From IMG/VR virus record IMGVR_UViG_3300029922_000038, positions 25,353 to 89,352 of that record: a stretch of 64,000 nucleotides of DNA. One strand, written 5' to 3'. This document shows, one piece after another, positions 972-61,514 of this stretch (position 1 is the stretch's first letter; each line of letters starts with the position of its first letter). This DNA comes from a virus. Under the pieces are notes generated by a model. That model made no database searches, was not told where the DNA came from, and was given only the letters and a program-made list of their open reading frames with translations. A program made the translations under genes and the position numbers.

Positions 972-1532
972 ATGAGTTCTCGTAAAATTACTGTGTACTC
1001 TACACAGACTAATAAAAAGAGTGAAGTAAATACAGATGTAGCAACATGGGCAGAACTGCAAGCAGTAATGACAGATGCTGGTATTACCCATGAAGGTCTA
1101 ACTGCAACAGAAAACAGGACAAAAACTAATTTGTCTTTAGGAGCAGCAGTTCTGCCAGAAGGAGAATTTGTTCTATTTCTTTCGCCAAGTACTAAAATTA
1201 AGAGTGGTACTTCTTGGAGAGATATGTCTTATAATGACATCAGGAAACACGCTACTTCAATTGGTGTATCTGGTTTAGGTACAACCGCAGAAATTGGTCA
1301 AAGGATTGAAAACTGGGAGAAAACTAACAAGAATACATCATCTTCAAATGATATTCTTAATACTAAATTTCCTACAGTAGCTGCTAAACTTGATGCTTTT
1401 ATTAAGCATACAGATAAACAATTTGCAGAAGTATCAGAAGCTGTTAATAATAGTGATTATTTTGATAATACTCCTTTTGGAGAAGATGACAATTCTAATC
1501 TTGCAAATGAAGCTGCAAGTCTTGGATTGTAA
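972..1532 (+). CDS. Ubiquitin-like (beta-grasp) protein with SAP-like domain
   Basis: Residues 4-79 alternate strands and one helix as in beta-grasp proteins of the ThiS/MoaD/prokaryotic-ubiquitin type (RKITVYSTQ, ATWAELQAVM, FVLFLSPSTKIKSG). Residues 86-115 (YNDIRKHA, GVSGLGTTAEIGQRI) look like a SAP/HeH helix-extended-helix DNA-binding motif. The remainder is polar and ends NEAASLGL, with no C-terminal GG. The next genes resemble E2, JAB and E1 proteins, so the context supports a ubiquitin-like partner. The missing diglycine makes covalent conjugation uncertain unless the tail is trimmed or the role is non-covalent. A strong terminator follows the gene. The fold assignment is from pattern alone. 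Confidence 0.55.
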   Translation: MSSRKITVYSTQTNKKSEVNTDVATWAELQAVMTDAGITHEGLTATENRTKTNLSLGAAVLPEGEFVLFLSPSTKIKSGTSWRDMSYNDIRKHATSIGVSGLGTTAEIGQRIENWEKTNKNTSSSNDILNTKFPTVAAKLDAFIKHTDKQFAEVSEAVNNSDYFDNTPFGEDDNSNLANEAASLGL

Positions 1533-1554
1533 TAAGTTTCATATTTTTAATAGT

Positions 1555-1590
1555 AAAATAGGGGTAGAAATGCCCCTATTTTATTTTAAT
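1555..1590 (+). terminator. Intrinsic terminator after the ubiquitin-like gene
   Basis: A 10-bp stem (AAAATAGGGG at 1555-1564 with CCCCTATTTT at 1573-1582) has an 8-nt loop and runs into a T-rich tract. It lies 23 bp after the stop of the beta-grasp gene. It would uncouple that small protein, in higher amount, from the E2/JAB/E1 genes downstream. Confidence 0.85.
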
Positions 1591-1599
1591 ATTTAATAT

Positions 1600-3144
1600 A
1601 TGTATGAATATAAAGCAGGAGATATAGTAAAAATAATAAATGGGAAAGGAAGTGATTTAGGTAGTATGCTAAATGGTAAAGAGGTTATATTAGATACTCA
1701 ACCAGATGATGGCTATAGATTAGGTACAGATAGTAAATATAATCAAAAATTAGTATTTTCTTATTTTGATAGGGATGGAGATTTAGTAGATTCATTATAT
1801 TTTAGAGATGAAGATATAGAACTTGTAGGTTGGACATATATACCAGATTATGAATTAATAAAAGATAAAAGGTTTAAATTAATAGAAACTGATTTAAATG
1901 AACAATTTGTTAATCCTAATTATATAAATAGTGAAGAAGTTTATAAGCATGGACTTATAGAGTTAGATTCAAGAGGATATTTTTGTAGTTTTGGAGGATC
2001 TATGATTGATTTACAAATTAGAGTATCTTCAAATTCAGATAGCCCGAATTATAATATTTTTAATGAACTTCAATATAAAGTAGAAATAAGATTAGATAAT
2101 ACTATTAAGATATTTTATAAAGAGCCTCAAGTAATATTTGATATTTCTATTATAGAAGAATATAAAACTATATTTAATGATTATTTTAAAGAAGATTGTG
2201 AAATTAGAAAAATAAATAATATAGAATATGAATTTGTAATTCATTTTCCTGATATAATTATAAAAAATGAGTTAGATAAAACTCATCCAATTAAAGACTT
2301 ATATGTATTTTTTAATCTTAAGGTATTACAAAATAATAGATTTGTCTTTATGAGAGAAAATCAATCAGATTATTATTTAAGTGGTTGTAGAGGAACAGTA
2401 ACAGATAGAGAATATGCTGTAAAATATCAACATTCTCATTTATCTTCTGGTTATCATAATTCTAAATTTTGTTTAGGGACTGGCCCCATTTTAACTAATA
2501 TTGCTGCATTTAATATGCGGAATGATAGTTTATTATTTGAAAAAATAATGTTGGATATTATAGATTATATAAGTGTTGAAAGTATAGAAGGTACTCCATA
2601 TATTGAATTTAAATGTGTTTATACCCCAAGAAATCAACAAAGAATTAATATAAGTGATTTACAATTACGACAAGAATATCTAAATTTCTTATCTTATTAT
2701 GATAATTTACCTGTATCTATTAGTAATTTAGAAATAAAAGTAGATGAAAATAATCCTGAATTTATTAAACAGGTATCTGCTATTACTAATTTTATAAATG
2801 GTCAGGAATCAGAAATACAAATTAGTAATAGCGATAAGAATAAATTAATGTTAATATTTAAAAATGAAGAAGTTAGACTTAAAATTATTAAAGAAGAAAA
2901 AACAGATGAGCAAAATAAAGAGCAGCTACAAAGAGTTGCAAATACAAGAGTCCTCCAATATATCGCAAAAAAACTTAGTGAAGACTTATCAGACAAAGCC
3001 ATTAGTGGAATTACCAGGAAGAGCGAAGCTGGTTATTTCACAGGAACTTTGGTTGAAGATACATCAACTTCACTTGAATGTAGGGAAAATAGAGTGGTCA
3101 GGAGTATTGTTTCTAAAAGTGGAAGGAAACTTACTAAATTATAA
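1600..3144 (+). CDS. E2-like (UBC/RWD-type) protein
   Basis: A 514-aa protein at the E2 position of a ubiquitin-like cassette. The central part has strand-rich sequence followed by HSHLS (His278, His280) and FCLGTGPI (Cys291). This spacing recalls prokaryotic E2-like families, in which an HxH-type segment precedes the active-site cysteine; Cys291 would be the candidate catalytic residue. The N-terminal third and the helical C-terminus (from about residue 400) are not recognised. From about residue 456 the reading frame overlaps the JAB frame by 281 nt, and the last ~55 residues look like out-of-frame sequence. The natural product may therefore end earlier or continue into JAB by slippage on the A7 tract at 2967-2973. 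The family assignment is inference. Confidence 0.5.
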   Translation: MYEYKAGDIVKIINGKGSDLGSMLNGKEVILDTQPDDGYRLGTDSKYNQKLVFSYFDRDGDLVDSLYFRDEDIELVGWTYIPDYELIKDKRFKLIETDLNEQFVNPNYINSEEVYKHGLIELDSRGYFCSFGGSMIDLQIRVSSNSDSPNYNIFNELQYKVEIRLDNTIKIFYKEPQVIFDISIIEEYKTIFNDYFKEDCEIRKINNIEYEFVIHFPDIIIKNELDKTHPIKDLYVFFNLKVLQNNRFVFMRENQSDYYLSGCRGTVTDREYAVKYQHSHLSSGYHNSKFCLGTGPILTNIAAFNMRNDSLLFEKIMLDIIDYISVESIEGTPYIEFKCVYTPRNQQRINISDLQLRQEYLNFLSYYDNLPVSISNLEIKVDENNPEFIKQVSAITNFINGQESEIQISNSDKNKLMLIFKNEEVRLKIIKEEKTDEQNKEQLQRVANTRVLQYIAKKLSEDLSDKAISGITRKSEAGYFTGTLVEDTSTSLECRENRVVRSIVSKSGRKLTKL

Positions 3145-3307
3145 AGATATGGAGTTTACTGCTGTAGATATGTATCTTATGGATATAGGAGATGCGACAA
3201 GTACAGAGTTTGATTTCCAAGATACAGCTTGGCTAAATGCTTTTGATGAAAACCCAGATTTAATGGGATTAAAAATGGGATTATGTCACAGTCATCATTC
3301 AATGGCT
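2864..3307 (+). CDS. JAB/JAMM metallopeptidase, exon 1
   Basis: First exon of a JAB (MPN+) isopeptidase-like gene. The domain starts near nt 3000 (KLVISQELW), has the catalytic-type glutamate in KIEWSGVLFL, and ends at CHSHHSMA, the first half of the JAMM signature. Read straight on, the frame stops at 3316. Joined to exon 2 it gives HSHHSMA-TFFSGTD, an exact H-x-H-x7-S-x2-D zinc motif. Family members remove ubiquitin-like proteins or trim them. The start is uncertain: ATG at 2864, ATG at 2906, or no separate start if the upstream E2 frame slips +1 into this one. The exon ends in phase 0 after an alanine codon. Confidence 0.8.
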
Positions 3308-3336
3308 AAATATTAGTTATTTCAATAAATATTGTT

Positions 3337-3344
3337 TATATTTG
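3337..3344 (+). promoter_or_regulatory. Promoter inside the intron for the endonuclease
   Basis: TATATTTG (followed by TAC) fits the Bacteroidetes -7 element TAnnTTTG. It lies 22 bp before the ATG at 3366, so the endonuclease could be expressed separately from the JAB transcript. No clear -33 TTTG is visible. Confidence 0.5.
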
Positions 3345-3365
3345 TACATAATAAAATGTATAAAT

Positions 3366-4193
3366 ATGAAATTACTTTCAAAACAAGAAAAAGAAAAAAT
3401 TGCAGAATTATATGATTCTGGATTAAATGCAGTAGAGATTAAAAGAGAGATGGGTTTAAAAAATCATCAACAAGTATATAATGTATTAAAATATTTACCT
3501 CAATATCAAGCATATAAATATGGTAGAGGGGATAATAGAAAATATACACTAAATGAAGATTATTTTAAAATTATTAATTCAGAAGAAAAAGCATATATAT
3601 TTGGTTTTATATGTGCAGATGGACATGTAGCTTTTAATAGACTAAGAATATTAGTAGCAACAAAAGATAAAGATATACTTGAAAAAATTAGAGTATGTTT
3701 AGAGTCTTCTGATGAAGTAGAAGATGTAATTAGAGAATCCAGATTTTCTTATGGAAAAAGATTATTCTATCATTCGCAAATAGCATTTAATTCAATTAAA
3801 CTTGCAAAAGATTTGTTAAATTTAGGATTAGATAGTAGAAAAACTTATTCTTTATCATCAAAAATATTAGAAAATATTCCTCTTAATTATATGAAGGATT
3901 TTTTAAGAGGATATTTTGATGGAGATGGGAATGTTATGTATGGGAATAAATATAGTTCTGGTAAGAAATATCTTATTCAGATAGCTGGGAATAAAGAGTT
4001 TTTAGAAAATTCTTTTGGAAAATATTTTCCAACAACTAATAAGTATTATTTTTTCCCTAAATCTATACAAACTTGGTGTTATAAACTATCATCTAAAGAA
4101 AATGTGAATAAATTTTTAGAATATATTTACAAAGATTCTACAATTTTTCTTAATAGAAAGTATAATATTTATAAAAATAATGTGGCCATTTAA
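3366..4193 (+). CDS. LAGLIDADG homing endonuclease (intron-encoded)
   Basis: A 275-aa intron endonuclease that would cut intronless JAB alleles and spread the intron. The N-terminus is a helix-turn-helix (residues about 5-42, EKIAELYDSG then LKNHQQVYNV). Two LAGLIDADG-type helices follow at about 76-87 (AYIFGFICADG) and 179-190 (LRGYFDGDGNV), each ending in the acidic residue that binds the catalytic metal. ATG 3366 is preferred over the upstream non-ATG codon because the promoter-like element ends at 3344. The last codons (Val-Ala-Ile-stop) overlap the intron's guide sequence, so gene and ribozyme share bases. Confidence 0.9.
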   Translation: MKLLSKQEKEKIAELYDSGLNAVEIKREMGLKNHQQVYNVLKYLPQYQAYKYGRGDNRKYTLNEDYFKIINSEEKAYIFGFICADGHVAFNRLRILVATKDKDILEKIRVCLESSDEVEDVIRESRFSYGKRLFYHSQIAFNSIKLAKDLLNLGLDSRKTYSLSSKILENIPLNYMKDFLRGYFDGDGNVMYGNKYSSGKKYLIQIAGNKEFLENSFGKYFPTTNKYYFFPKSIQTWCYKLSSKENVNKFLEYIYKDSTIFLNRKYNIYKNNVAI

Positions 4194-4453
4194 AACACAT
4201 TGAATTGCTGGAAACCTAAGTCTATTTATAGATATGGCAATCAGCAGCTAAGATTAATCTTATGATTAATAAAGTTCAGAGACTATCGAAAACACAGTTT
4301 AAAAACTGGAAGTTAGTAGAGTACATCCAAGTGGATGGAAGCGGTGTGACTTTACACTTAGTAAAGTATGATATAGTCCGATACCACGTAACTACTGAAG
4401 TTACTATACCGAAAGGGTGGAAGTTGTCTAACGAACAACAGGTAAATTTATTG

Positions 4454-5251
4454 ACATTTTTTTCAGGTACAGATATAGGGCATTTACATTCTCAATCTCC
4501 AGATCATAATTACTTTCTATCTTTAATTGTTAATTTTGCGTGTGAACCAATTGCTAAAGTAGCTTTTGCTTCTACGCGAAAATTAGCTTCATCATCTTCT
4601 TTTAGTTTTAGAGATGATGAAGGGAATATACAATTTCAAGAAGATAATAGTAATAAAGAAGAAGATATTACAGTAGTATTTAATTGTGATGTATTTGTAG
4701 AAATAGAACCTAAACTTCTTGATAGAATAGATGAATTAAAAGAAGCTAAGAAAAATAGGTATAAACAATTTACAAATAATTGGAATACTAAAAAACAAAA
4801 TTATATTCATACTGATTTTGATTGGGAAAAATGGAAAGCTGAACAAAATGGAGAAGGAATAGCTACTGTTTGGGATACTGAAGGTAAGAGATTAAATGCT
4901 ACTGATATTCAAACGGAGTTTGATTTTAGTAATCATGAAAAACTTATTGCAGATTCACAAATAGAATATTTTACTAAATGTTTACTTGCTGATACTTATA
5001 ATGATTATGAGAAAACAGTAGAATTATTAGTAGAAGATAGAAATGCTTGTGTAGATACAAATGCTGAAGCAAGACAATGTTGTATGGCCATGCACATGAT
5101 GTATGATTCTGTTTTTCATGATGATACTTATTTTACTGAAGTCATGACTAAAGTTATAGCTCTATTAGGTAAATATAAAAGTGATTTTACAACAAAGATG
5201 ATTTCTATCATTAAACAAGAATTAAAAGAATATGTCAGCACAGAATTATGA
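4454..5251 (+). CDS. JAB/JAMM metallopeptidase, exon 2
   Basis: Second exon, starting TFFSGTDIGHLH. It supplies the serine and aspartate of the JAMM motif (S in FFSG, D in GTD) and the rest of the domain to about residue 50. A 200-residue C-terminal extension follows, with a charged helix (about 95-125), DFDWEKWKAEQ, and a cysteine/methionine-containing stretch (CVDTNAEARQCCMAMHMM). The extension is unrecognised and may bind the E1-like partner. Bases 4262-4453 are open in the same frame but belong to the ribozyme core, so a start at 4262 would give a false gene. The 3' end overlaps the E1-like gene by 20 nt, which suggests translational coupling. Confidence 0.85.
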   Translation, partial: TFFSGTDIGHLHSQSPDHNYFLSLIVNFACEPIAKVAFASTRKLASSSSFSFRDDEGNIQFQEDNSNKEEDITVVFNCDVFVEIEPKLLDRIDELKEAKKNRYKQFTNNWNTKKQNYIHTDFDWEKWKAEQNGEGIATVWDTEGKRLNATDIQTEFDFSNHEKLIADSQIEYFTKCLLADTYNDYEKTVELLVEDRNACVDTNAEARQCCMAMHMMYDSVFHDDTYFTEVMTKVIALLGKYKSDFTTKMISIIKQELKEYVSTEL

Positions 5252-5939
5252 TAGATTTAAAGATGCTCCTTGGTTCAAACCCCTTAAAGTAATTGTAGGG
5301 GGTGCTGGAGGTATAGGTTCCAATCTTATTTATCTCTTAGCTAAAATGCCATATCGAATTTATATATATGATTTTGATGTAGTAGAAGCACATAATAGTT
5401 GTCAAATGCTTGGAGGTTTTACTAATATAGGTAAGTTAAAAACAAGAGCAGTAAGAGAACTTGCACAAAAATTATCAGATAATTATGGTATTAGAGAGTT
5501 TGGAGAATATACTTCAGAAGGAATGGTAGACGATATTATGTTTGCTGGATTTGATAATATGAAAGCAAGGAAGTTAATGTATGATAACTGGAAACAATAT
5601 CAATTAACTAAAGTAGAAGAACCTGCTATAGAAGAACCTAAGAAAGAGGTTAATTTATTTGTAGATATGAGATTAGCAGCAGAAACAGGTATTATATATT
5701 TTATAGACTCTAAAGAAAGAATGGAAAGATATGAAGCTGAATTATTTGATGATTCAGAAGTTCCAGATGAACCATGTACTTTTAGAGCTACTGCTCATGC
5801 TTCTATGTTAATAGCTTCTTATGCTGTTGCAGGGTTAGTTAATAAGGTAACTAATGTTGAATGGGGAATAGAGGCAAGAGAAGTACCATTTAAACTTAAT
5901 TTTGAATTACCATTATTTAATATGAAAACAATTGTATGA
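5232..5939 (+). CDS. ThiF/E1-like adenylyltransferase
   Basis: A Rossmann-fold ATP-binding protein of the ThiF/MoeB/E1 superfamily, expected to adenylate the C-terminus of a ubiquitin-like protein. The nucleotide loop GGAGGIGSN spans residues 23-31. YDFDVVEAHNSCQ (46-58) and IGKLKTRAV match the family's DxDxV...N..Q and K positions. It is 235 aa, a single domain, without the CxxC zinc pairs of MoeB. The cysteine in PCTFRATAHA near residue 181 is the only obvious thioester candidate. It overlaps the JAB gene upstream and the next gene by 4 nt. It resembles proteins often annotated 'PRTRC system ThiF'. Confidence 0.8.
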   Translation: MSAQNYDRFKDAPWFKPLKVIVGGAGGIGSNLIYLLAKMPYRIYIYDFDVVEAHNSCQMLGGFTNIGKLKTRAVRELAQKLSDNYGIREFGEYTSEGMVDDIMFAGFDNMKARKLMYDNWKQYQLTKVEEPAIEEPKKEVNLFVDMRLAAETGIIYFIDSKERMERYEAELFDDSEVPDEPCTFRATAHASMLIASYAVAGLVNKVTNVEWGIEAREVPFKLNFELPLFNMKTIV

Positions 5940-6964
5940 TAGAGCAATTACATATAGAAAATAATTTTGGATTTATATTACAAAATCATGGCATTAAAGA
6001 AAGTAATTCTTATTGTGAATATGTTCCTTTTTATATATTAAAGCAGAATACAGATTCTTTAATAAAATTAGAACAAGAGAATAGGCAAGGTATAGAAGAA
6101 ATATATAATAATTTATATCATGAGTTTCAATTATGTCAAGATCAAACTTTTTCTCAATATTATACTATTGCTGAATTACCTGCTTTATTTCAAGAAAATG
6201 ATATTATTAGTCATAGATTTAGATTAAGAAATTATGAAGAAGGAATATATTCTCCTTTTAATTTAGAAATAGAAGAAAATATAATTAGGCAATATGAAGA
6301 TACTAAAAAATTTATATCTTTATTTTCATTAGTAATTCCTATTAAATATGTACCTTATGTACAAATATGTTTAATGTTAGAAGAACCTATTGATTTAAGA
6401 GTATATGAATTTTGGATTAAAGAAGATTTTGATATTAAAGATTCTATTTATACTAATTATAGAAAACTATATAGAAAGTATTTATTACCTGATTTAAAAG
6501 AGAATAATGTTCCTATTGTAGTTAAAAAAGATATAGATAAAGAACTTTATTTCTTTCCTGAAATGCCTAAATTTAAAAGAACTTCTGATTATGATAAATA
6601 TGTAGAAGAACTTGTTAAAGATAGTATTATTAAATTAAGGATAGATAATGGTATACAAGGTATTAATAATGATTTTCGTGTAACTTTTGAAAGTAATGAT
6701 TATATATTAGAAGAAGGTACATTAAATGTTAATGGTACTACTTGGAGAACTTTTAATAATTCTGGAGATAATTTAGTATCACAAATAATGAGTACTGATA
6801 CTTATCAACCGTTAACTGCTGCAAGATTAGATTCATTTATATCAAATTTAACTTTTAATTCAAATAGTTCATTAGGTAGTAATATGCCCCCTGAAGAAAA
6901 TCTAAATCATATTAATAATGAATTATATCAAGAAGCATTAAGGAGTATGGAAACTTCTGAATAA
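5936..6964 (+). CDS. Unknown protein of the ubiquitin-like cassette
   Basis: A 342-aa protein, not recognised. It starts 4 nt inside the E1-like gene, so it is probably translated with it and may belong to the same complex. It is rich in Asn, Glu, Ile and Tyr, with mixed strand/helix sequence and no membrane segment or catalytic motif that I can see. After its TAA the same frame stays open for 25 acidic codons to 7042 (EEQEIENGAL...GDEF), so the stop may be a recent nonsense change. Confidence 0.7.
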   Translation: MIEQLHIENNFGFILQNHGIKESNSYCEYVPFYILKQNTDSLIKLEQENRQGIEEIYNNLYHEFQLCQDQTFSQYYTIAELPALFQENDIISHRFRLRNYEEGIYSPFNLEIEENIIRQYEDTKKFISLFSLVIPIKYVPYVQICLMLEEPIDLRVYEFWIKEDFDIKDSIYTNYRKLYRKYLLPDLKENNVPIVVKKDIDKELYFFPEMPKFKRTSDYDKYVEELVKDSIIKLRIDNGIQGINNDFRVTFESNDYILEEGTLNVNGTTWRTFNNSGDNLVSQIMSTDTYQPLTAARLDSFISNLTFNSNSSLGSNMPPEENLNHINNELYQEALRSMETSE

Positions 6965-14335: not shown

Positions 14336-14367
14336 AAAAGGGGTTAGAAATAACCCCTTTTATTTTT
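14336..14367. terminator. Bidirectional terminator between convergent blocks
   Basis: An 11-bp stem, AAAAGGGGTTA (14336-14346) with TAACCCCTTTT (14351-14361), loop GAAA, is followed on the + strand by ATTTTTAA. It lies 5 bp after the end of the - strand giant gene, so it stops the long structural transcript and any + strand transcript arriving from the left. Confidence 0.85.
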
Positions 14368-17300
14368 AATATGTTTTAGTAAGTGATTCCTCTGTAGAAA
14401 GAACTTGGTCAGTAAGAGGTAAAGCCTTCTTCACAGCCCTTCCAATTCTTGATTGACCACTATACTCACCACCAGTTATTTTATCCTTACCAGTAGAAGC
14501 ATATTGCCCTACAGCATGAAATATTTTACCAAAGTTAGTTACTGTTTGTACAGCAGGTATTACGTTCTTACTCATATCTACAAATGAACCTGGATTATAG
14601 TAAAATGAAAGTTCATCTAAATTCCTATGTAAGATATTAGACATATAAGTAAGCATCTTAGGATGATTTTTATCTTTATCTTTTTTAATAGCCATAAATG
14701 CAATCAGCATAGTTGACATTAACATCATCTCTTTAATATTAGCTCTCATATTAGCAATATCAACAGGAGATAAACCATCTATTTCAGTATCTCTATTTAA
14801 TAACTGATTTTTAGCTATTTTAAAAAATGATTGCATAGATTTAGTAATGCTATTATTATTTGCCCTATACATATCTCTAATAGATAACCATCTTCCTTTA
14901 AATTCTCTACCTAAGTCTTCATCATAATAAGATTCTGCTAACCTATTATTGAATGTATTAGGTATCCAGTTTCTAAATGTGAAAGCTAATCTACCAATTG
15001 CATTCTTTTTAGCTAATACTGCATAAGCATTATGGTAGTTACCGTGTATAATTTCAGATAACTTTTTAACCCGTAAAGCAGCATCCTTCATTATCCTACT
15101 ATCTTCTAAGTGTGAGAACTCTGGTTTAAATCCAGTACTTGTTCTTGCATCCCATAAATTATAGAATTGTTGTTTACCTTTAGCATCAATATAATAAGTT
15201 TCTCCTTTATCATTAGATACAGGCATATGTAGAAGTGCAGCAACCATCATTCTACCCTGACCTATAATTTCCTGATTCTTCATCATGAACATAAGCTTGT
15301 TCATAACTCCTTTTGCTTTAGATTGCCCTATTTCTTCAAATTCTCCAATAGTGCCCATCTTTTGCATCATATCATTAAATTTGGCTCTTGTTTCTTTATT
15401 TACTGAATTAGTAATTAAACCAGCTTTCCTATATTCTTTAGTACTAAAATCAGTACCATAAGAAGCATGTATTCTATTAGTAATACCAAGTAGCGTATGC
15501 CTTGTAATAGCCGCAAGTGGGTTCATTGCAAGTCTTGTAAATACAGTTGTATGAAGAAGTGCATCTATTGCTTTAGCTCCTGAAAATACTTTACCATTTT
15601 CATCAGGTTTACCTTCCATTTCTTCTGCTTTTCTATTACCATAGAAAGCATCTACACTATATTCTGCTCTTTCAATAGTATGTTTGAGGTCTTTATTACC
15701 TTTAATATTCTCTTGATTTCTAATAACATCTAAGCCATTAAGGATAGCATCTTCAACTTCAGTTTTAACCTTAACTGCTGCTCCCATTTCTACATATTTC
15801 TTAAATATAGTAGGAATATCATCTAATCTATCCTCTTGTGAAAGCTTGTCTCCCATCATACCATTTCTTAATCTTGCAATGGGTTTATTAGTAGCAGGGT
15901 CAATAGCATCATTTGTATGGTCAACAGCATCTTTATAAAGAGTATCTTGAGCTTCTTTTTTTAATCTACCAAATACTCCATCTACATCAAATAAGTTTTT
16001 CATAAGAGGTCTTGCAAGTTCAGGTAAATCCGACTTCTTCATAGATTTACCCATATCAAGATAAGGATCATATTTCTCTCTAAGTGAAAAAAGATATTTA
16101 TAATATTCTTGTAATTTTGGATTACTCTCAAGTGCATTATATTTAGATTCTACCCATTCATCATTTACTTTCTCTGGGATAAGATACTTTTGCCCCCCTT
16201 TTTTCCATAAGGCTTTTGTATTAGCTTCCCCATTCCTAATGTCATTTTCAGTAGAATATCTTATAAATGGACTATTTTCATGTTCCCATTCTTTTAATCT
16301 ATCTGTTTTAGCTTTTAAGTAAACAGCTTCATTTTCAGATTTAGTTTCTCCAAATTCAATATCTAAAGTATTATCAAGATGTTTAATATAATTAGTTCTA
16401 TCTTCTTCATACTTATCTAATAATTCTTTCTGTCTTGCATGAGAATCTTCACTAAATCTATCATCAGTTTCTCCATTTTTAACCTTATTAATATCTATCC
16501 TATATTTATTATTTAGTCTAAATAGACTCAATTCCCCTATTTTAGATTTATCTCCTTTATTAATTTCATCTTGAATTTCTTTTTCTTTAATATAATATTC
16601 AAGTCCAGTTCTTGTAATAAGTTCTTTCTTATTATCTAAGCCAGTTCTTGTAATCCTATCATGAAAATCTTTACCTAATGATTTAGTAAGGTCTTTATTA
16701 TATTCTTCTAATTTCTTTTTAATATCATGACTTTCATTTTCTCCATCTTGTGTAGATTCAGATATATATCTTTGTACAAGTCTTTCATTTGCATTATGGG
16801 ATAAACTACTATTTACAAATCTTGAACCTGCCCATCCAGTATCCTTATCTGCATTAAACATATCTTCTTTATAGATATTACCAAAGGTATTATTACCTTC
16901 TTTAAGGGCAACTATTCTTTGAGCACTTAATAATCTTTTTTCTGCATCTGAAAACTTAACTAAGAATTTACCAACAGCTTCTGATTCAGGATTATCTTCA
17001 CTATGGTCAAAACTCTTTAATAGTGAATCATATCCCCCCATATAAATCTTAGCTATTTTAAGATTATGAGAAGTAGGATTACCATTTATTAATTGATTAG
17101 CTTTAGTAAGATTATCATTAGACAAGGAGAGAACAGATTGTAAATCCTGTTTAGCTACTAATTTCTTAATTTGAACATTAATATTCTGCAAAGCTTCATC
17201 TTTAGCTGTTACTTCATTAGAAGTAATTACTTTTTGATTTTCCCAGGTTCTCTTTTGATTTTCTAATTGCATAAGTACTTTTCTAATACCAGGATCAGTA

Positions 17301-20300
17301 ATAGAATCATATTTATCTTTCTTATTTTCATCTTTAAAAGAAGGACTTTCGGCAGTTAGATTTACATCTTCTAACTTTTTATTAAGAACTTCTTTTAATT
17401 TATTCCAATTCTCTTGAAAATCAGTCTTTCTACCTTCTAAATTATCTTCTACCCAATTTGCAATAGCTATTTTAGCCTTTTCTCCAGGAGTTGCATTTGG
17501 ATTATCTAATACTGTTTGTTTATATTGTTCAGTTTTATTAATCTTACCATATAAATTACTGATAATAGGATTTTTATCCCCTAATAGTTCTATAACTTTA
17601 TTACCAGAACCCCTATCTACTTCTGATGGATTAGAAAGAGCATATTTAATTTGAGATAGTCCAGTATCTATTTTTTCAGGTTCTACTATATTTTGTTTTT
17701 CTTTTTCCCCATCTAAAGAAGTAAGTTTTAATACATTAGATACTAATTCTGATAAAGCAGAGCCTTCTTTAAGATTAGGAAATACAATAGTTTTAATAAG
17801 GTCAACTATTCTTTGAAGAATAGATTTACCACCATATTCTAAATTATTAAGCTCTCTTTGTAATCTTGGATCAGATAAACCATAAGATATAAGTTCTCCT
17901 ATACCATATTGCTTATTATCAGAACCTTTATCATGAGCATTATTAAATATATGGTCTAATAGAGCCTTAGTATTATCCTCTCCACCTACTTCAGTACCTC
18001 TATGTAACTGTATTTTATCTTGATTCTTATCTACAAATTCATATAATTTCTCTAATGATTTAATCGCAGTTACTTTTTTAATATCTGTAATTTTACCATC
18101 ATAATAATCATGTAAATCTTTTAGAGTTAATCCATGTAAAGCTTCATGGAAGATGGTTTCTTGTTGCCTACCTTCATTTTCTTCTTCTAAAGGATTAAAT
18201 TTAAGTGTAGTATCTCCACTTTCCTGACCTACATGAGCACTACCTTTAACTTTGAGTGTAGTAAATTCATTTTTCATATCTCCTATTTTTGGTAAAATAA
18301 GAGAAGCTAATTCTTTATAAGCAGGAGTAGCAGGGTCTTCTATAATAGCCCTAAGTGTATCTTCTGTTTTACCTCCATCTAAATGATATTTTTGACCTAA
18401 TTGATAAGCAGTAGGTAATTCTTTAAAATTAGTAGGTTGTTTTTCAGGAATATCTGCTCCAGGTAAAGTATTATTTTCTACTTTTTGATAGCTATCTATA
18501 TTATTCTCTTTATATAAAGAATGATTTACATCTTTATCAAAACTATATTCATACATATTACCAGTGCCAAGAGTATTTATCTTTTGATATACACCATCTT
18601 CTCTATCTTCATATAATCTATATTTATTAGATGTTTTAGAATATCTTGAAAGATACTTAGGTGCTTGCCATACATCATTAACTTTATCCCTTCTAAAAGA
18701 TACCATATCATTAGAATCCAAATTCTTTAATTTAAAAGAATCTATATCCCCATCTTTACCTTTAACATCAGTAATTTGAGTAACATCTTGTTTAACCCTC
18801 GTTGCTTGAGTAGGATTATGTTGAAATACTTGTCTTTGTACTCTATTAAAAGCTAAAGAATCATTGAAATCTATTTTACCTTTTTCAGAAATAAGATTTT
18901 CTTTAGCCCAATCAATAGGAATATATTTAACAAAAGAACTTCTTGATTGTACTCCACCATTAAGATAGGAATAAGTAATTAAATCTTTTGCTATTTCTCT
19001 AACTTCAGGGTCTTTAGAATGAATAGCATTATACCATTTTAAACTATTATCAAATGAAGTATTATCATCCTCTGCTTTTGCAGCATCATAATTAATTTCA
19101 TCAGGATTACCATAAGATTTAGATAATTTAATACCAGAAGCTAATCTATCTAACCAAGGATCTTTAGTTCTTGCTTCCATAACTCTGATGGCAAGGGATT
19201 TATTAGAATAAATTTTATTACCGTTTTCATCAAGAGTATATTCACTTACATTTAATCTTTTTCTATCCCCCTCTATATCATTAGATATAAAACCTTCTTT
19301 AGTAAAAGAAGAAGCCTTCATATTAGTGTGCATGAGGTCATACACTTTAGAAGTAAGAAAGTTAGATTTACCCACTTCTTTTAGAAAACTATTTTCAAAT
19401 CCCTCATAGGATTTAGTATAATAAGGAAATAATGTGCCTAATGTTTCTGCTGCATCTAATCCTGTTTTAATAATATTACCCTCTCTTGTCCTCTGCCCAT
19501 CTTTAGCAAAAAATTCATTTCCACCATTAATATGAGGAAGGCCATCTTGAAGAATACTACTTATTTTTTCATTAGCTAATTTAACATCAGATATAGATTT
19601 ACCTAACCCTTGTGAAGCAGGAGTCATAGCAGACTTTAAAGTTGTCATATCTCCAGCTATTTTATCATAAGCAATAAAGTTATAAAGTGCTTGATTTTGT
19701 ACTTTAGTATCCCCATTAGTGAGAGAATCATTCATCTCCTGCCTTGAAAGAGCTTTTACTTCAGTAACTCCTCTACTTTTTAAATCAGCTAAAGTTTTAT
19801 CTGTAAGCTGTCTTTTAGTAAGTTTATCTTCAAAAGATAATGTAGGATCATTAAGAGATTCTAATTTAGATATATAATTTTCAATAGAAGGTTGTCTTAG
19901 AAAAGGTACAGTAAAAGTTTCATCAAATCCTGTTTTATTAAGTAATTCATTAACTCCAAAAGTAAAAGTATTAATACCAGCTTTTGCAAGTATTTGAGCT
20001 TTAGCTTGGTCAACTGCTGATTGAAGTATTTCCCCTATATAAGAGGATATTGGTTTTCCATTAAACCCTTGTGTTTTATTAAGAATATATGCACCTTTTC
20101 TAATTTCACTATTATCATGATATATAGAACCATTATCTTGTTTAAATAAGACTGCATCATCATGGGTATTACCATTTTTATCTTCTAATCCTTGTGCAAT
20201 ATGTAGAGAAGTTTCTTGAGATAAAGTATGATTTCTAAGTGAAGAAGCTGCCATTGCAGTAATATCTTTACCTGCTTTATTATCTTTAAATACTTTATCT

Positions 20301-23300
20301 GTAGTACCCCAATAGAGAATGGAACCCTGTTTAGTATCTTTATTAATAAGGGCATCTATTCTATCAGATTCTGTTTTAAGATTACTAAAATCAGCAGGAG
20401 ACATAGTTTTATTAAGTAACTCTTCAGAACCTGCTATTTTATGATTAATATCTATAATCTTATTTTGTTTAGATTCTACTGTATCCTGATTAGAGTCTAC
20501 TTTTGATAATTTACCATCTTCTTCTAAATCATAATTATAAGTAAGATTATAAAGTTTATCAATATCAAAGTCAGACCCCATCTGTTTAACAATTTCATGG
20601 GGTACTAAAGCCATATCCTGATGACGTGGATCTAAATATCTAACTACTTTAAATCTCATTGTAGAATTATGTGGAAGGTGTGGTATCCTCATTCCTATAT
20701 GAAAATGAAGTTCATCATCCATCATACCTTCTTTTGGAGTACCATCTTTATTTATATACTTAGTATAATCAAGTAAATTACCTTCTTTATCTTTAAATCT
20801 CCAAGGAAGTGCTATTTCAGAATATCTTGAATTATCTTTAGGGTCTATTAATTGATAACCTAATCTTTTATATCCTACGGAAGAAGTCTGAATATATGAA
20901 TGTCCTGGAAGTTGAATATCCATCAAATTATTACTTATAAGGGAAGTAATCATAGGTTCAATCTTCTCTGCTTTAGTAGAATATGCCATATCAATAGCAA
21001 ATTTACCAGTTGCAGAATTAATTTTAAGTGCAGCAAGTTCATTAGGATTCCAGCCTAATGATTCTCCTTGTTTAATAAGATAGTTGCTTAGTTTAGTAAG
21101 ATCTTTTAACTGACCATCTTTTACACCCCATTCTTCATTAAGTTTAGTATGGGCATTATTAATTAACCATGAGTGAGCTTCATTATAAGGAGTTCTTAAT
21201 TCTCCAATAGTAGTATCCCCAATTTTAAAATCATCTGATAAATCAGCAAATAAGTTTACCCTTTCTTGTGTAGGTTGAGCAATAGTATTATCATCATGAT
21301 GAGGCATATCTTGCTGAATACCCCATCCCTCTCTTGGGATAGTTACACTATTATTAGCAATTAAATCTTCTAAATTATCTACTATATTACCATCTTCATC
21401 CCATATAGAAATAGGAGATTGCATGCCTAATTTAGCACCAGATTCATAAATAGCAGAAGCTATATCATACTTCTCCATCATCTTTCTCAAAGCATCCATT
21501 GAATGACCTTCTGTAATATCTTGTGATAATACTGCTTGTGAAGTCTTGTTATAGATAGCTTTATTAATACCATTATCAATATCAGAAGAAGTATCAACTG
21601 GCTTATTAGGTTGTAAATGTATATCTTCTTCTGGGCTAAGTTCTATGTGATGACTACCATCTTCTACTGACTTATCTATCTTTGATATAATAGAGTTATA
21701 AATAGAAGGTTCTATTTTACCCATTTTATATTGCCCATATAAATATTCTTTTCTTGTAGAAAGTTCTTGAGCATCAGTAGCATTAATAGCATTCTTTTCT
21801 TTATATTGATCAAGGGTTTCATTAAGAACTTTACCATCTAAATCATCTGATATAAATTTAGGATAGAAATCTTTAAGATAAATAACTTTTCTTGTTTCTC
21901 CTTTACCAAAGTTAGGTACTTCTCTTGGTGCTATTTGCATAGCTGCTCTTTTATGAAAATTATCAAGGGTTTCTTGAATAGACTTTTTACCAAATTGAGC
22001 AGGATCATTAAATAAGGTAGCTAATAAATTAGCTTTATTTATAGCATCATTTACTAAGAAATCAACTGCTGAATGTTTAATAACATCTTGTAATTTATCA
22101 GCTATATTTGTAGATGCGCTATTTTTAATAACATCTTGTTTATATGATTTATCCCCAAGTATATCTTCTATCCCAGATTTATTATTAGATATAATGCCAG
22201 ATTTCCTCCAATCTTCAATAGTCTGTTTAACCATTCCATCAAGTTCAGTTCTGATTATATCTTTTACATGATTCATAATATCATGTGCAAATGGTACTTG
22301 TGTCTCCTGTTTACCACTTATTTTATCAAATGCTTCAGGACTAACTTTAAATACTTCAGGATTTATTTTACCATTCTTTAAATATAATCCTATATCTCCA
22401 GGTTTTTCACTGATAGAATCATTCATTGAAGGGAATAAGAAGAATTTTAATCCTGCTTTTGCCCCAGTGTGATAGTTTTGTAGATATTGTTTTTTAGTAA
22501 AAGTTTTATCTTCTTCTTTAGTAGTAGTATCCTCTGCTTGTTCTATTTGTTTAGCTGTTTGCCTAACCCTATACATTTCTCCAGCAACAGCATTATAGAA
22601 ATTATCTATAACATGTTCAGGGAAATTATATTTACCATCCTGAAAGTTCCAACCATCTATATTAACTTTAGCGTCATTAATACTTTGAGTCATAGATTTA
22701 TCAGATAAAGTATATCCAGTAAATTTACCATAATTAGTACCTTGATTCTGAAATAAAACTAATTGTGTAAGTTGTCTTACTTTATCATTCATATCACCTT
22801 TAGTAATAGGATCTTCTTTAGACCCCCACATATCAGTAGTATCAAATAATTTAATGACAAAGTTTTTAGCTCTTTCAGTATCCCTTACAAATGATTTAAT
22901 AAGAGGATTGTTAGTAGCAAAAGCTGTTTGTTCAAGTTCTGCTGCCCTACCAGTAGATTGTAAATTATTAAGAGTATCACTTTGATAAGTAGTCTTATTT
23001 ATTAAGAATACACTATTCCCTTCTCCATTTCTATAAGAAGCCCCCCAATTGTCACTTTCTTCTTTAGCTGCTGCTCTTGCAAGCATATTTAAAGATGAAG
23101 TTTCAGTAGAAAAAGGATTATTCTTATCAAATAAATCATCTGTATTCTTTTCATCACTCTTTAATCCAGCAAGTCTTTGAAAAATATAAATAAGTTTACC
23201 ACTAAATATTTCTTTATCTGTTAAAGGTCTTTTAGTATCATCATTAGGATTATATTTAATATTCTCCTTATCTCCACTTACATTTCTAAGCATTTTGGGG

Positions 23301-26300
23301 GTAACATCTATGCCTACTTCATTAAAATGTTTGGCAATATCTGCCATTTGTTCATCTGAATAATACCCATTTGGGGTAGCAGAATTAACTAATTTAGTAT
23401 AACTATTAAGCAATTCTTTAGCTTTATCAGTATTTATTTGATAACCCCCTCTATTTTCTCCTGTTTCAGAAGATTTTATATATTCACTACCTAATAATTG
23501 ATTTTTCCATCTTTCACTAATCCTATTAGTAAGACCACTTTTGCTTGCATTTTGTATGTAAGCTGCCATTTCCCCCTTCTTATTATCTAAAAGTACAGAA
23601 TCATAATCAGATAATTTCTTTCTAAAGTTAGTGTTAAACTCATTTATAAGTTGAATATCTGCTTTTTGAATATCCCCACCACCTGTTAATTTGTCATATA
23701 ATGCTTTTAAGTTAGGATTTTTAGCTGCCAATTCTTGTAATTTGCCTAATATATTATAAGAAGGTGTATCTACAAGGTGCATAAGTACCCTATTATAGAG
23801 TGCTGTATAATCCTGAAACTTTTGAGTACCTAAAATAGATTCTACAGGTTTACCTTCTTTATCCATTTCTGGTATAAAGTACATAAACTTTCTCATATTA
23901 GCAGAAGCACTATCTTTAGGATTAATCTTTAAAGATGCCCCATCGCTATAATTAATTCCGGCAACTCTTTCTTCTTCAGATAGGGTTTCTCCTTTAATAG
24001 AAGTTTTAAAATTATTAAGATTTTGTTCTATTAAACTTTTAAACCCTATAAAACCATCTTCTTTTGCATCCCAATGAGCAAGGGCAAGAGTTATAAAAGG
24101 TTTAGCAGAATCATTGGTAGTTTTAGAATTTAAACTATTTAAAAATATATCATATACATTATCAAAGGCATCTGCTACACTTTCTCCTTTATTATTAACC
24201 TGATCTAAGAAATGATAAGTAAGTTCATCTACTATCTGGCTTTGTTGGGATAGGGATACATTTTCTAACTTATAATCTTTTATATTTAAAGAAGGTACTG
24301 GGCTTTCAGCAGACAGAGTCTTATTAAGGGTAGTAATTACTTCATTGGTTTTACCCCTCTTTGGAGTAAATTGATGAGTAGTTTCTTCTACCTTAGTTGG
24401 TTCTACCCCTGCTACATGAGTAGTTATAGGTTCTTCAATAGGTTTAATTTCAGATGGTAATATATCAGTATCAAAAGTAACAGTAGGTTGTACAAAGTAA
24501 GACCTACTACCATCTTTTTGTATAATAGGAGATAGATCTGTACTAAGTATATTATTCTTTAATAAGAAATCCATATAATTAGGATAATTCTTAACTATAT
24601 GTGAACCATTTTCATCTACTTGAGAATGGTTATATTCATCCTTAGAATCAATAAGATCAGCTTTTACAGTATGGGTTTTACTATCAAGTACAGTAGTTAT
24701 AGAAGTATTATGTTGGTCTAAATTATATTTAGATTCATCATAAGATTCTCCTTCTACAAACTTACCAGAAGTACCATAATTAATAATAAGTTTATCATTA
24801 ACCAATGATATATTAAATGTTTGACTATTAAGTTTTAGGTTCTTAAAGTCATCACTTACATAAGTAAATTGTTTAATAAAATCTTGTAGCCCTTTTAAAG
24901 AACCTACATTATAACCATTAATAATAGTATTACCCTGATGCTTTAAGTATGTATTAATAGCTCCAAGAATTAAACTTTTATCATTATTAGATATTTTTGC
25001 AATATCTAAAATATGCCCAAAATTAACATCTTGTACAGGAGTTTTAGTAACCATAACTACAGTACCAGCTATTGCTTGGTTAGTTATAGTTTTATCACTG
25101 CCTTGCAGTAACCCATTTGCTTTTACAATAGCTAATTCCCCATCTTCAAATCTATTAAGATTATTTTTACCAAATGCTTCAGTAGGGGTATTAGTAGTAC
25201 CTTCTTCTAATATATTCCTATAACCAATACTTTTATCATTTATAACTGATTTAAGCGTTTTACCTGGATTTTTTATTAACCAATCCCTTATTAAAGCATG
25301 TTCTTTAAATATACTTTCATTTCTATCTTTTAATTCATCACTTGTTCCAAGATTTTTATTTAGCCAATCTTTTGTATGGAGATATAAATCAGGTTTCCCC
25401 TCTTGTGTTATTTTAATAGGTACATTATATATATCTTCTTTATTGGCTTCATAATCTTCATGTTTAGTATCTAATGATAATTCTATTTCAGAACCCATTT
25501 CATAAGAACCAGGAGCAGACATTTGAATATATTTTTGTTCTATTTTAGGAGTTCCATCTTCATTAAAACTTCTTACTATTGTGTAATGTTCATTTCCTTT
25601 AGTATCTATAATAGTATCAACATGAAAATCTGCACTATGAAATGCCGCTTGTGCTCCTACATTAACTTGTTTACCTTCTTCATCAGTAAGAGGTTTACCA
25701 GTTATAGGATTAGTTATTTGACTTTTTTCTCCAACAGTAACATTTTTATTAGTTACTTTTTCTTCCTCAATATTAGGATTTTTAACATCCCCTTTAATTA
25801 TTTTATCTTCTGATACAGGGGATTTTATAAATCCACTATCTCCAAGAAATCCTTCTGGATTACCTACCTGATTATCAGCTTCTGTAATTCCCTCTTCACT
25901 TGTTGGAGTTCCTTTTCCAATTGTTCCTTCAGTTTCATTAACTCCTGTATTTTTTGTATCATCTTCTATTTCTGATTGTTTATTTGTTTTTTTAGTATTA
26001 TCTTTTCTATCTAATTCTTCTACTCTATCTGTAATTACTTTTTTAACCTCTGGCTTTTCATCAGAAATTTCATTTGACAAATCTACTAATTTAGTTTTAT
26101 TAGTTTCATTTTTAACTTCTTTTTTTAAATCTTTAACTCCTTGCTTATTCTTTTCAACAATTGCTTGTTTAGTATCTTCAATATTTTTTTTAATAGTTTC
26201 AGGATCAGTTGCATCTCTAAACTTATCTCTTGAAATCTTTAATGAGTTTTCAAGTTCTGCCTTTAGGCCAGCTTTTTGTTTGGTAAAATGTTCAGCTAAT

Positions 26301-61441: not shown

Positions 61442-61514
61442 GGATTCTAAGCTAATCTGGTGAAAACGTTAGTTTGAAGAACTAAAGAGCTTGGATCAAA
61501 ACCAAGAGAATCCA
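61442..61514 (+). tRNA. tRNA-Phe (GAA), degenerate
   Basis: A 73-nt cloverleaf: 7-bp acceptor (GGATTCT with AGAATCC), 5-bp anticodon stem (TTAGT/ACTAA) with loop TTGAAGA giving anticodon GAA, and 5-bp T stem (CTTGG/CCAAG) with loop ATCAAAA. Discriminator A, no encoded CCA. The D stem is poor (only two of four pairs), U8 is A and T54 is A, so it may be a weakly functional or diverged phage tRNA. Confidence 0.68.

Follow-up and report, generated by a model that had tools for sequence, protein, structure and literature searches.

The PRTRC plasmid system (ParB-E-C-F-B-A-ThiF) contains a core of four genes, C-B-A-ThiF, in the order modifier, E2-like protein, JAB and ThiF, and operon type 6d of Iyer et al. 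(2006, PMC1779556) resembles it. The Bil/BUB and type II CBASS (Cap2-Cap3) operons also combine an E1, an E2-like protein, a modifier and a JAB-type protease, and the partner that CBASS conjugates is the CD-NTase (PMC10097602). A phage example is lambda-type tail assembly, in which TAPI is a ubiquitin-like protein (Ubl) with a C-terminal extension and TAPK is a JAB-NlpC protein whose JAB domain is thought to cut at the TAPI Ubl glycine (PMC1779556). Here we describe a five-gene cassette at positions 972 to 6964 of a 64,000-nucleotide stretch of viral DNA (the window), which comprises bases 25353-89352 of the 89,352-base IMG/VR record IMGVR_UViG_3300029922_000038. The cassette consists of genes for a Ubl candidate, an E2-like protein, a JAB protein, a ThiF/E1-like enzyme and a fifth protein, X, in that order, and adjoins a primase gene. 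We consider it fairly probable, judging from the sequences, that it encodes a self-contained pathway of Ubl conjugation and deconjugation acting at the replication stage.

The core order is that of PRTRC, and both gene sets adjoin replicon maintenance genes. Unlike PRTRC, the phage cassette is phage-borne, has gene X after ThiF and encodes a much longer Ubl, which has a SAP/HeH-like tail and lacks a terminal glycine. The combination of E1, E2-like protein, modifier and protease is shared with Bil/BUB and CBASS, but the phage cassette has no defence-gene neighbourhood, no E2 or Ubl family match and a separate small ThiF, and it lies in the replication block. TAPI resembles the phage Ubl in carrying a C-terminal extension, whereas TAPI and TAPK have no E1 or E2 and belong to tail-assembly genes. 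By analogy, the best reading is that the cassette would work like the PRTRC or Bil-type systems.

Conservation and linkage of the cassette in crAss-like phages

The best matches to the window terminase were terminases of Crassvirales and Flavobacterium phages, with about 39-41% identity at best, and the terminase, portal and major head protein of the window matched PHROG families. Because of these matches we assign the phage to the crAss-like group, divergent from the named genera. An earlier note, written from the sequence alone, had proposed a phage-borne ubiquitin-conjugation-like cassette. The five genes it placed at 972-1532, 1600-3144, a JAB, 5232-5939 and 5936-6964 are present, and they lie in the replication block of a crAss-like phage genome.

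The order primase, Ubl, E2-like, JAB, ThiF, X is shared by crAss001 (gp80-gp75, with gp79-gp75 as the cassette proper), DAC15, cr85, cr106, cr111, cr126, cr128, bajarodcaudo virus 1 and Flavobacterium phage FpV4, and other Steigviridae likewise carry the set. In FpV4 the toprim (primase-like) gene and Ubl are separated by a uracil-DNA glycosylase gene, while Crassvirales relatives have genes for uracil-DNA glycosylase, a resolvase and an exonuclease 3' of X. Genes of nucleotide and DNA metabolism around the cassette include those for uracil-DNA glycosylase, ribonucleotide reductase and dUTPase.

A scan of viral contigs with a ThiF alignment yielded 80 contigs, 74 of which had enough upstream sequence for counting; a viral scan with the window ThiF as a single query gave zero matches. 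E2-like and JAB genes were found in 74/74. The Ubl gene was recognized by profile in 72, all with the same order, and the remaining two (L078 and L079) have a profile-unmatched, Ubl-like open reading frame (ORF) at the expected place, as judged by eye. When viral contigs were instead seeded with the E2-like protein, JAB and ThiF were present in 49/49 and Ubl in 62/62; the two scans share many contigs. Presence of the cassette was all-or-none in nine records. Three Suoliviridae, crAss002 (Intestiviridae) and Cellulophaga phage phi14:2 (Steigviridae) lack ThiF, JAB and E2 alike; crAss001 served as the positive control. A ThiF scan of contigs from bacterial genomes detected only two small contigs from metagenome-assembled genomes, which are probably misbinned phage. 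From these data we conclude that the cassette genes travel as a set and, because a fixed order is kept in more than 70 contigs, that the cassette is real and conserved far beyond chance. The literature searched, a body from which most subscription papers were absent, did not mention ThiF, JAB or ubiquitin in connection with crAss-like phages.

A distant ThiF was also seen in Xanthomonas phage PhiXhv-12 (L011:5932-6615), where the other cassette genes were unmatched by profile in the fetched stretch.

Candidate enzymes and modifier

The ThiF/E1-like enzyme (5232-5939, plus strand, as are all cassette features below; 235 aa) contains GGAGGIGS, D47-x-D49, N55, K70 and C182 (codon 5775-5777), and it matches PF00899 above the Pfam cut-off (1.1e-10). 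D49, N55, K70 and R113 are present in 75/75 ThiF sequences and C182 in 74/74. The GGAGGIGS and DFDVV motifs from which the earlier note had called a ThiF/E1 protein are thus joined by a family match and an invariant catalytic-type cysteine, and MccB, UBA5, TcdA and Cap2 are among the PDB matches of the ThiF profile. These results support an E1-like identity. The GenBank ThiF label suggests thiamine biosynthesis; this was rejected, as ThiS, ThiG, ThiH and ThiC are not annotated in the neighbourhoods of relatives, unlike in a true thi operon.

The E2-like protein (1600-3144, 514 aa) has H278, H280 and C291 (codon 2470-2472) in the arrangement Y-x-H-S-H-x(n)-C-x-G. The HxH and Cys291 seen in the earlier note are therefore present, as H278-S-H280 and C291-L-G. 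Among 60 sequences covering this region, Y276, S279, H280, C291, G293 and N223 are invariant, and Y-x-x-S-H...C-x-G is found in 60/60, the first histidine being replaced by phenylalanine in three. E327, S328, G331 and P333 are conserved in 61/61. By eye, the order of histidine and cysteine followed by a predicted helix is E2-like. The possibility that this protein is a second JAMM protease was discarded, as it has no serine and aspartate at the required spacing after HSH.

The Ubl candidate (972-1532, 186 aa; phrog_15560, 8e-17) consists of a beta-grasp-like part, residues 1-77, followed by a SAP/HeH-like region and a variable tail, which agrees with the SAP-like fusion proposed in the earlier note; a SAP domain match was obtained with 1 of 59 Ubl relatives (3e-4). 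In an alignment of divergent Ubl sequences, Gly79 is the sole invariant residue (59/59) and Ser78 is present in 57/59. These residues (codons 1203-1208) are part of KIKSG and close the last predicted strand, a position held by GG in ThiS, MoaD and ubiquitin; we propose that they form the functional C-terminus or processing site, equivalent to a diglycine. The earlier note had pointed to the absence of a GG end. This holds for the polypeptide, which ends in SLGL, and not for the beta-grasp-like part, which is closed by the invariant Ser-Gly where GG would be.

Several relatives bear on this site. The two further divergent members, L078 and L079, have KSKGGA, that is GG, at the Ser-Gly place, and the Ubl protein of L015 ends in RVKSGEVV, just past SG. 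In cr106_1 (L010:2722-3925) an HNH endonuclease ORF splits the Ubl gene right after KIKSG, leaving a 92-aa Ubl ORF that ends in KIKSGKF and a separate SAP-like ORF; no group I core above the Rfam cut-off was found at this split. T25, which precedes a predicted helix, is at least 90% conserved in the alignment, and a conserved threonine before the helix is a trait described for beta-grasp families by Iyer et al. (PMC1779556). Together these features indirectly support the first gene as a candidate Ubl. The Ubl of cr126_1 (L007:3332-4258) has a tail with an apparent ribosomal L7/L12 C-terminal domain (PF00542, 5e-12; member assigned by eye).

Gene X (5936-6964, 342 aa) is fast evolving, and a related X follows ThiF in 52/76 contigs. 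Its start overlaps the ThiF stop, consistent with the coupled fifth gene of the earlier note. Elsewhere in the window, Rfam identified a tRNA at 61442-61514 (46 bits) that ARAGORN did not call, and the minus strand contains a 4730-aa ORF (14366-28558), in size like the giant crAss-like transcription proteins.

Group I introns in the JAB and E2-like genes

The ORFs listed as 2864-3316 and 4262-5251 are halves of one JAB gene interrupted within its JAMM codons. Exon 1 (2906, or 2864, to 3307) overlaps the E2-like ORF and ends in HSHHSMA, and exon 2 (4454-5251) begins with TFFSGTD, so that the motif is cut as HSHHSMA^TFFSGTD. The intervening 1146 nt (3308-4453) form a group I intron, matching RF00028 at 4138-4398 with 54.5 bits (E 1e-12). 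This exceeds the gathering score of 50, indicating a conserved catalytic core. The intron contains a 283-aa ORF with a TTG start as listed (3342-4193) for a LAGLIDADG homing endonuclease (PF14528, LAGLIDADG_3, 3.9e-10; phrog_4645, 3.9e-45).

An internal guide sequence, AATGTGGCCATT (4179-4190), is complementary, with one U.G pair, to the ligated junction AATGGCT|ACATT. It would form a 7-bp P1 with the end of exon 1, with the U.G at the splice site, and a 5-bp P10 with the start of exon 2. The group I hallmarks of a U at the 5' splice site, a G at the intron end and guide-exon pairing are all present. The guide sequence thus locates the splice sites independently of the JAMM motif. Joining 3307 to 4454 yields, with the start at 2906, a protein of about 400 aa that contains HSHHSMATFFSGTD, an exact JAMM motif, with E63 and H128-S-H130-x7-S138-x2-D141. 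We thus reject a broken JAB gene, since splicing restores the exact motif and the guide sequence fits. The JAB called in the earlier note therefore stands, as two exons around an intron rather than an uninterrupted gene.

H130, S138 and D141 are present in 67/67 JAB sequences, H128 in 64/67 and E63 in all 64 rows with a letter at that position; the exceptions fit fragments consisting of exon 2 only. Prok-JAB matches nine members of the JAB set (A6), and the JAB profile matched JAMM1 and CSN5 in the PDB at E 0.02. These results support the JAB identity.

JAB introns occupy two sites among the cassettes, HxHxxMx^ (the window, L041, L074 and L022) and H^SH (L067, L036, L058 and L022, with L175 assigned by profile split only). 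In L022 (5500-6035), tandem group I introns (85 and 62 bits) divide the JAMM motif of a single JAB into three exons; the mini-exon between them is about 18-21 bases, the 3' end of the second intron not being fixed. The E2-like gene of L084 also has a group I intron (3231-4364), at YMH^SH. This intron is 68% identical over 890 nt to the JAB intron of L067, and its LAGLIDADG gene, which is antisense, is 56% identical to that of L067. This homology indicates that a single intron lineage has targeted HSH codons in both the JAB and the E2-like gene of the cassette. A preference of homing introns for conserved codons is known. A study of group I introns of crAss-like phages (PMC7886860) names MCP, PolB, primase, ATP_43b and, with an intein, TerL as hosts in its main text. 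JAB and E2 are not among these main-text hosts, whereas here one lineage occupies the HSH codons of two pathway enzymes, and the pair of JAB and E2 as intron targets was not named in the crAss literature examined.

Proposed pathway and alternatives

An intrinsic-terminator-like hairpin (1552-1585) lies between the Ubl and E2-like genes. It has a 15-bp stem and a T-rich tail, with a folding energy of -20 kcal/mol (z -4.7). Hairpins with a T-rich tail were found in 60/64 unique Ubl-E2 gaps, compared to 2/63 upstream of Ubl and 5/64 shuffles. Ubl and E2 are nearly always spaced in relatives (median 65 nt), while E2 and JAB overlap (median 68 nt; about 240 nt with JAB exon 1 in the window) and the JAB-ThiF pair is coupled (median -4). 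In the window the hairpin ends just 14 bases ahead of the E2 start. As this is too short for a sigma-70 promoter, expression of the enzymes would require read-through or a promoter lying within or ahead of the Ubl gene end. The simple reading of the hairpin is that the modifier would be made in excess over the enzymes.

We infer the pathway chemistry, the E2 fold and the target as follows. Many transcripts would stop at the hairpin after the Ubl gene, giving an excess of Ubl. The JAB metalloprotease, which would be produced only after removal of the group I intron from the codons of its catalytic motif, would trim the precursor just after Ser-Gly, releasing the beta-grasp part from the SAP/HeH-like tail; later it may also remove conjugates. 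ThiF would adenylate the exposed glycine and hold the Ubl as a thioester on C182, from which it would be transferred to C291 of the E2-like protein, whose H280 would lie close to the active site. Finally, the Ubl would be attached to an amine group on a protein, of the phage or its host, that functions in DNA replication or repair, and gene X may select this target. Most likely the cassette serves to tag a protein of the replication stage reversibly; its location among replication genes, together with the SAP/HeH-like tail, would point to a protein that is DNA-linked. Modification of a virion protein, which the earlier note had also considered, found no support: the cassette is part of the replication block, and the crAss001 virion atlas does not mention these genes in its main text.

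The earlier note had likened the cassette to PRTRC-type systems. The phage and PRTRC ThiF profiles aligned with a probability of 98.4% (hhalign, E 7e-15, 185 columns) and C182 falls on the PRTRC invariant cysteine, which indicates homology rather than subfamily membership. JAB matched PRTRC A weakly (TIGR03735 in five members, best 9.4e-4; hhalign P 45%, E 2e-4, 20 columns). The E2-like protein had no Pfam or NCBIfam match to PRTRC B (Prok-E2_D), and hhalign gave E 0.17-0.62 with 6-21 of 100 shuffles scoring as high; some of these alignments place the phage cysteine on the PRTRC cysteine and, being non-significant, were not counted as evidence. Searches with Prok-E2_B and Prok-E2_D in about 400 genomes returned too few sequences for a reference. 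Ubl did not match PRTRC C (hhalign E 0.31). Homologues of ParB, E and F were not found in the cassette, where X is unlike F or E by hhalign and the neighbours are primase, uracil-DNA glycosylase, resolvase and exonuclease. Since relatives of PRTRC B and C and the ParB, E and F genes were not found, we do not file the cassette as PRTRC.

Some results weigh against a conjugation pathway. Neither the E2-like protein nor the Ubl matched an E2 or Ubl family, respectively, in Pfam, NCBIfam, the PDB or hhalign comparisons; no E3 or substrate is identified, and gene X has no explained role. Of the profile comparisons proposed in the earlier note, that of ThiF was positive while those of E2 and Ubl gave nothing significant. 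The hhalign comparison of Ubl with ThiS/MoaD (E 0.08; 4/100 shuffles as high) lacks power, because PRTRC C likewise fails against ThiS. The 514-aa protein is accordingly a putative E2 whose assignment is unproven and is the weakest link of the pathway.

An unlikely alternative is a sulfur carrier, in which ThiF would give the Ubl a C-terminal thiocarboxylate that donates sulfur to a nucleotide, RNA or cofactor, JAB would be a Mec+-like enzyme of cysteine or thio-transfer and the 514-aa protein would be a sulfur acceptor and not an E2. Sets of ThiF, Ubl and JAB do occur in sulfur metabolism (Iyer 2006, PMC1779556), and both the unproven E2 fold and the surrounding nucleotide and DNA metabolism genes would suit this role. 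However, no rhodanese, SirA or sulfurtransferase neighbour was found among the annotated genes of relatives, and the 514-aa protein occurs in every complete cassette with its invariant cysteine and E2-like H...C arrangement.

Bil is a bacterial Ubl pathway in anti-phage defence. The bacterial Ubl pathway of CBASS also acts against phage (PMC10097602), which raises the prospect of a counter-defence or superinfection device that tags a host or rival-phage protein or subverts a host Bil/CBASS-type Ubl defence. The patchy presence of the cassette among Crassvirales would be expected of such a device, but PADLOC matches were limited to JAB and odd single hits, and the cassette is fixed beside primase in the replication block rather than in a variable accessory region. 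We consider this unlikely as well. MccB and PaaA are among the closest PDB chains to the ThiF profile, yet a system of the ribosomally synthesized and post-translationally modified peptide or peptide-adenylating kind (MccB/PaaA type), with ThiF modifying the first gene product and the others as tailoring enzymes, is highly improbable, as UBA5 scores close to MccB, the first gene encodes a domain-sized conserved protein rather than a short precursor, and JAB and the E2-like gene are obligatory partners.

Taking Ubl conjugation as the preferred reading, a wider claim seems to us evenly poised, namely that a Bacteroidota phage lineage including crAss001 has a complete Ubl pathway of its own, with a Ser-Gly-ended modifier, a new E2 family and one intron lineage in the HSH codons of its E2-like enzyme and its deconjugase alike. 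Among the viruses of the human gut Crassvirales are dominant, and the cassette is conserved in part of the order, where its genes are currently annotated as 'thiamine biosynthesis', 'metalloprotease' or 'hypothetical'. The introns illustrate cleanly how mobile elements can settle in the best-conserved codons of a pair of enzymes from one putative pathway. If our reading is correct, the cassette would be a virus-encoded, self-sufficient Ubl system with cultured models (crAss001, DAC15 and the Flavobacterium psychrophilum phages), it would add a new E2-like family and a Ser-Gly-ended modifier, and the target and purpose of tagging by these phages would become directly testable.

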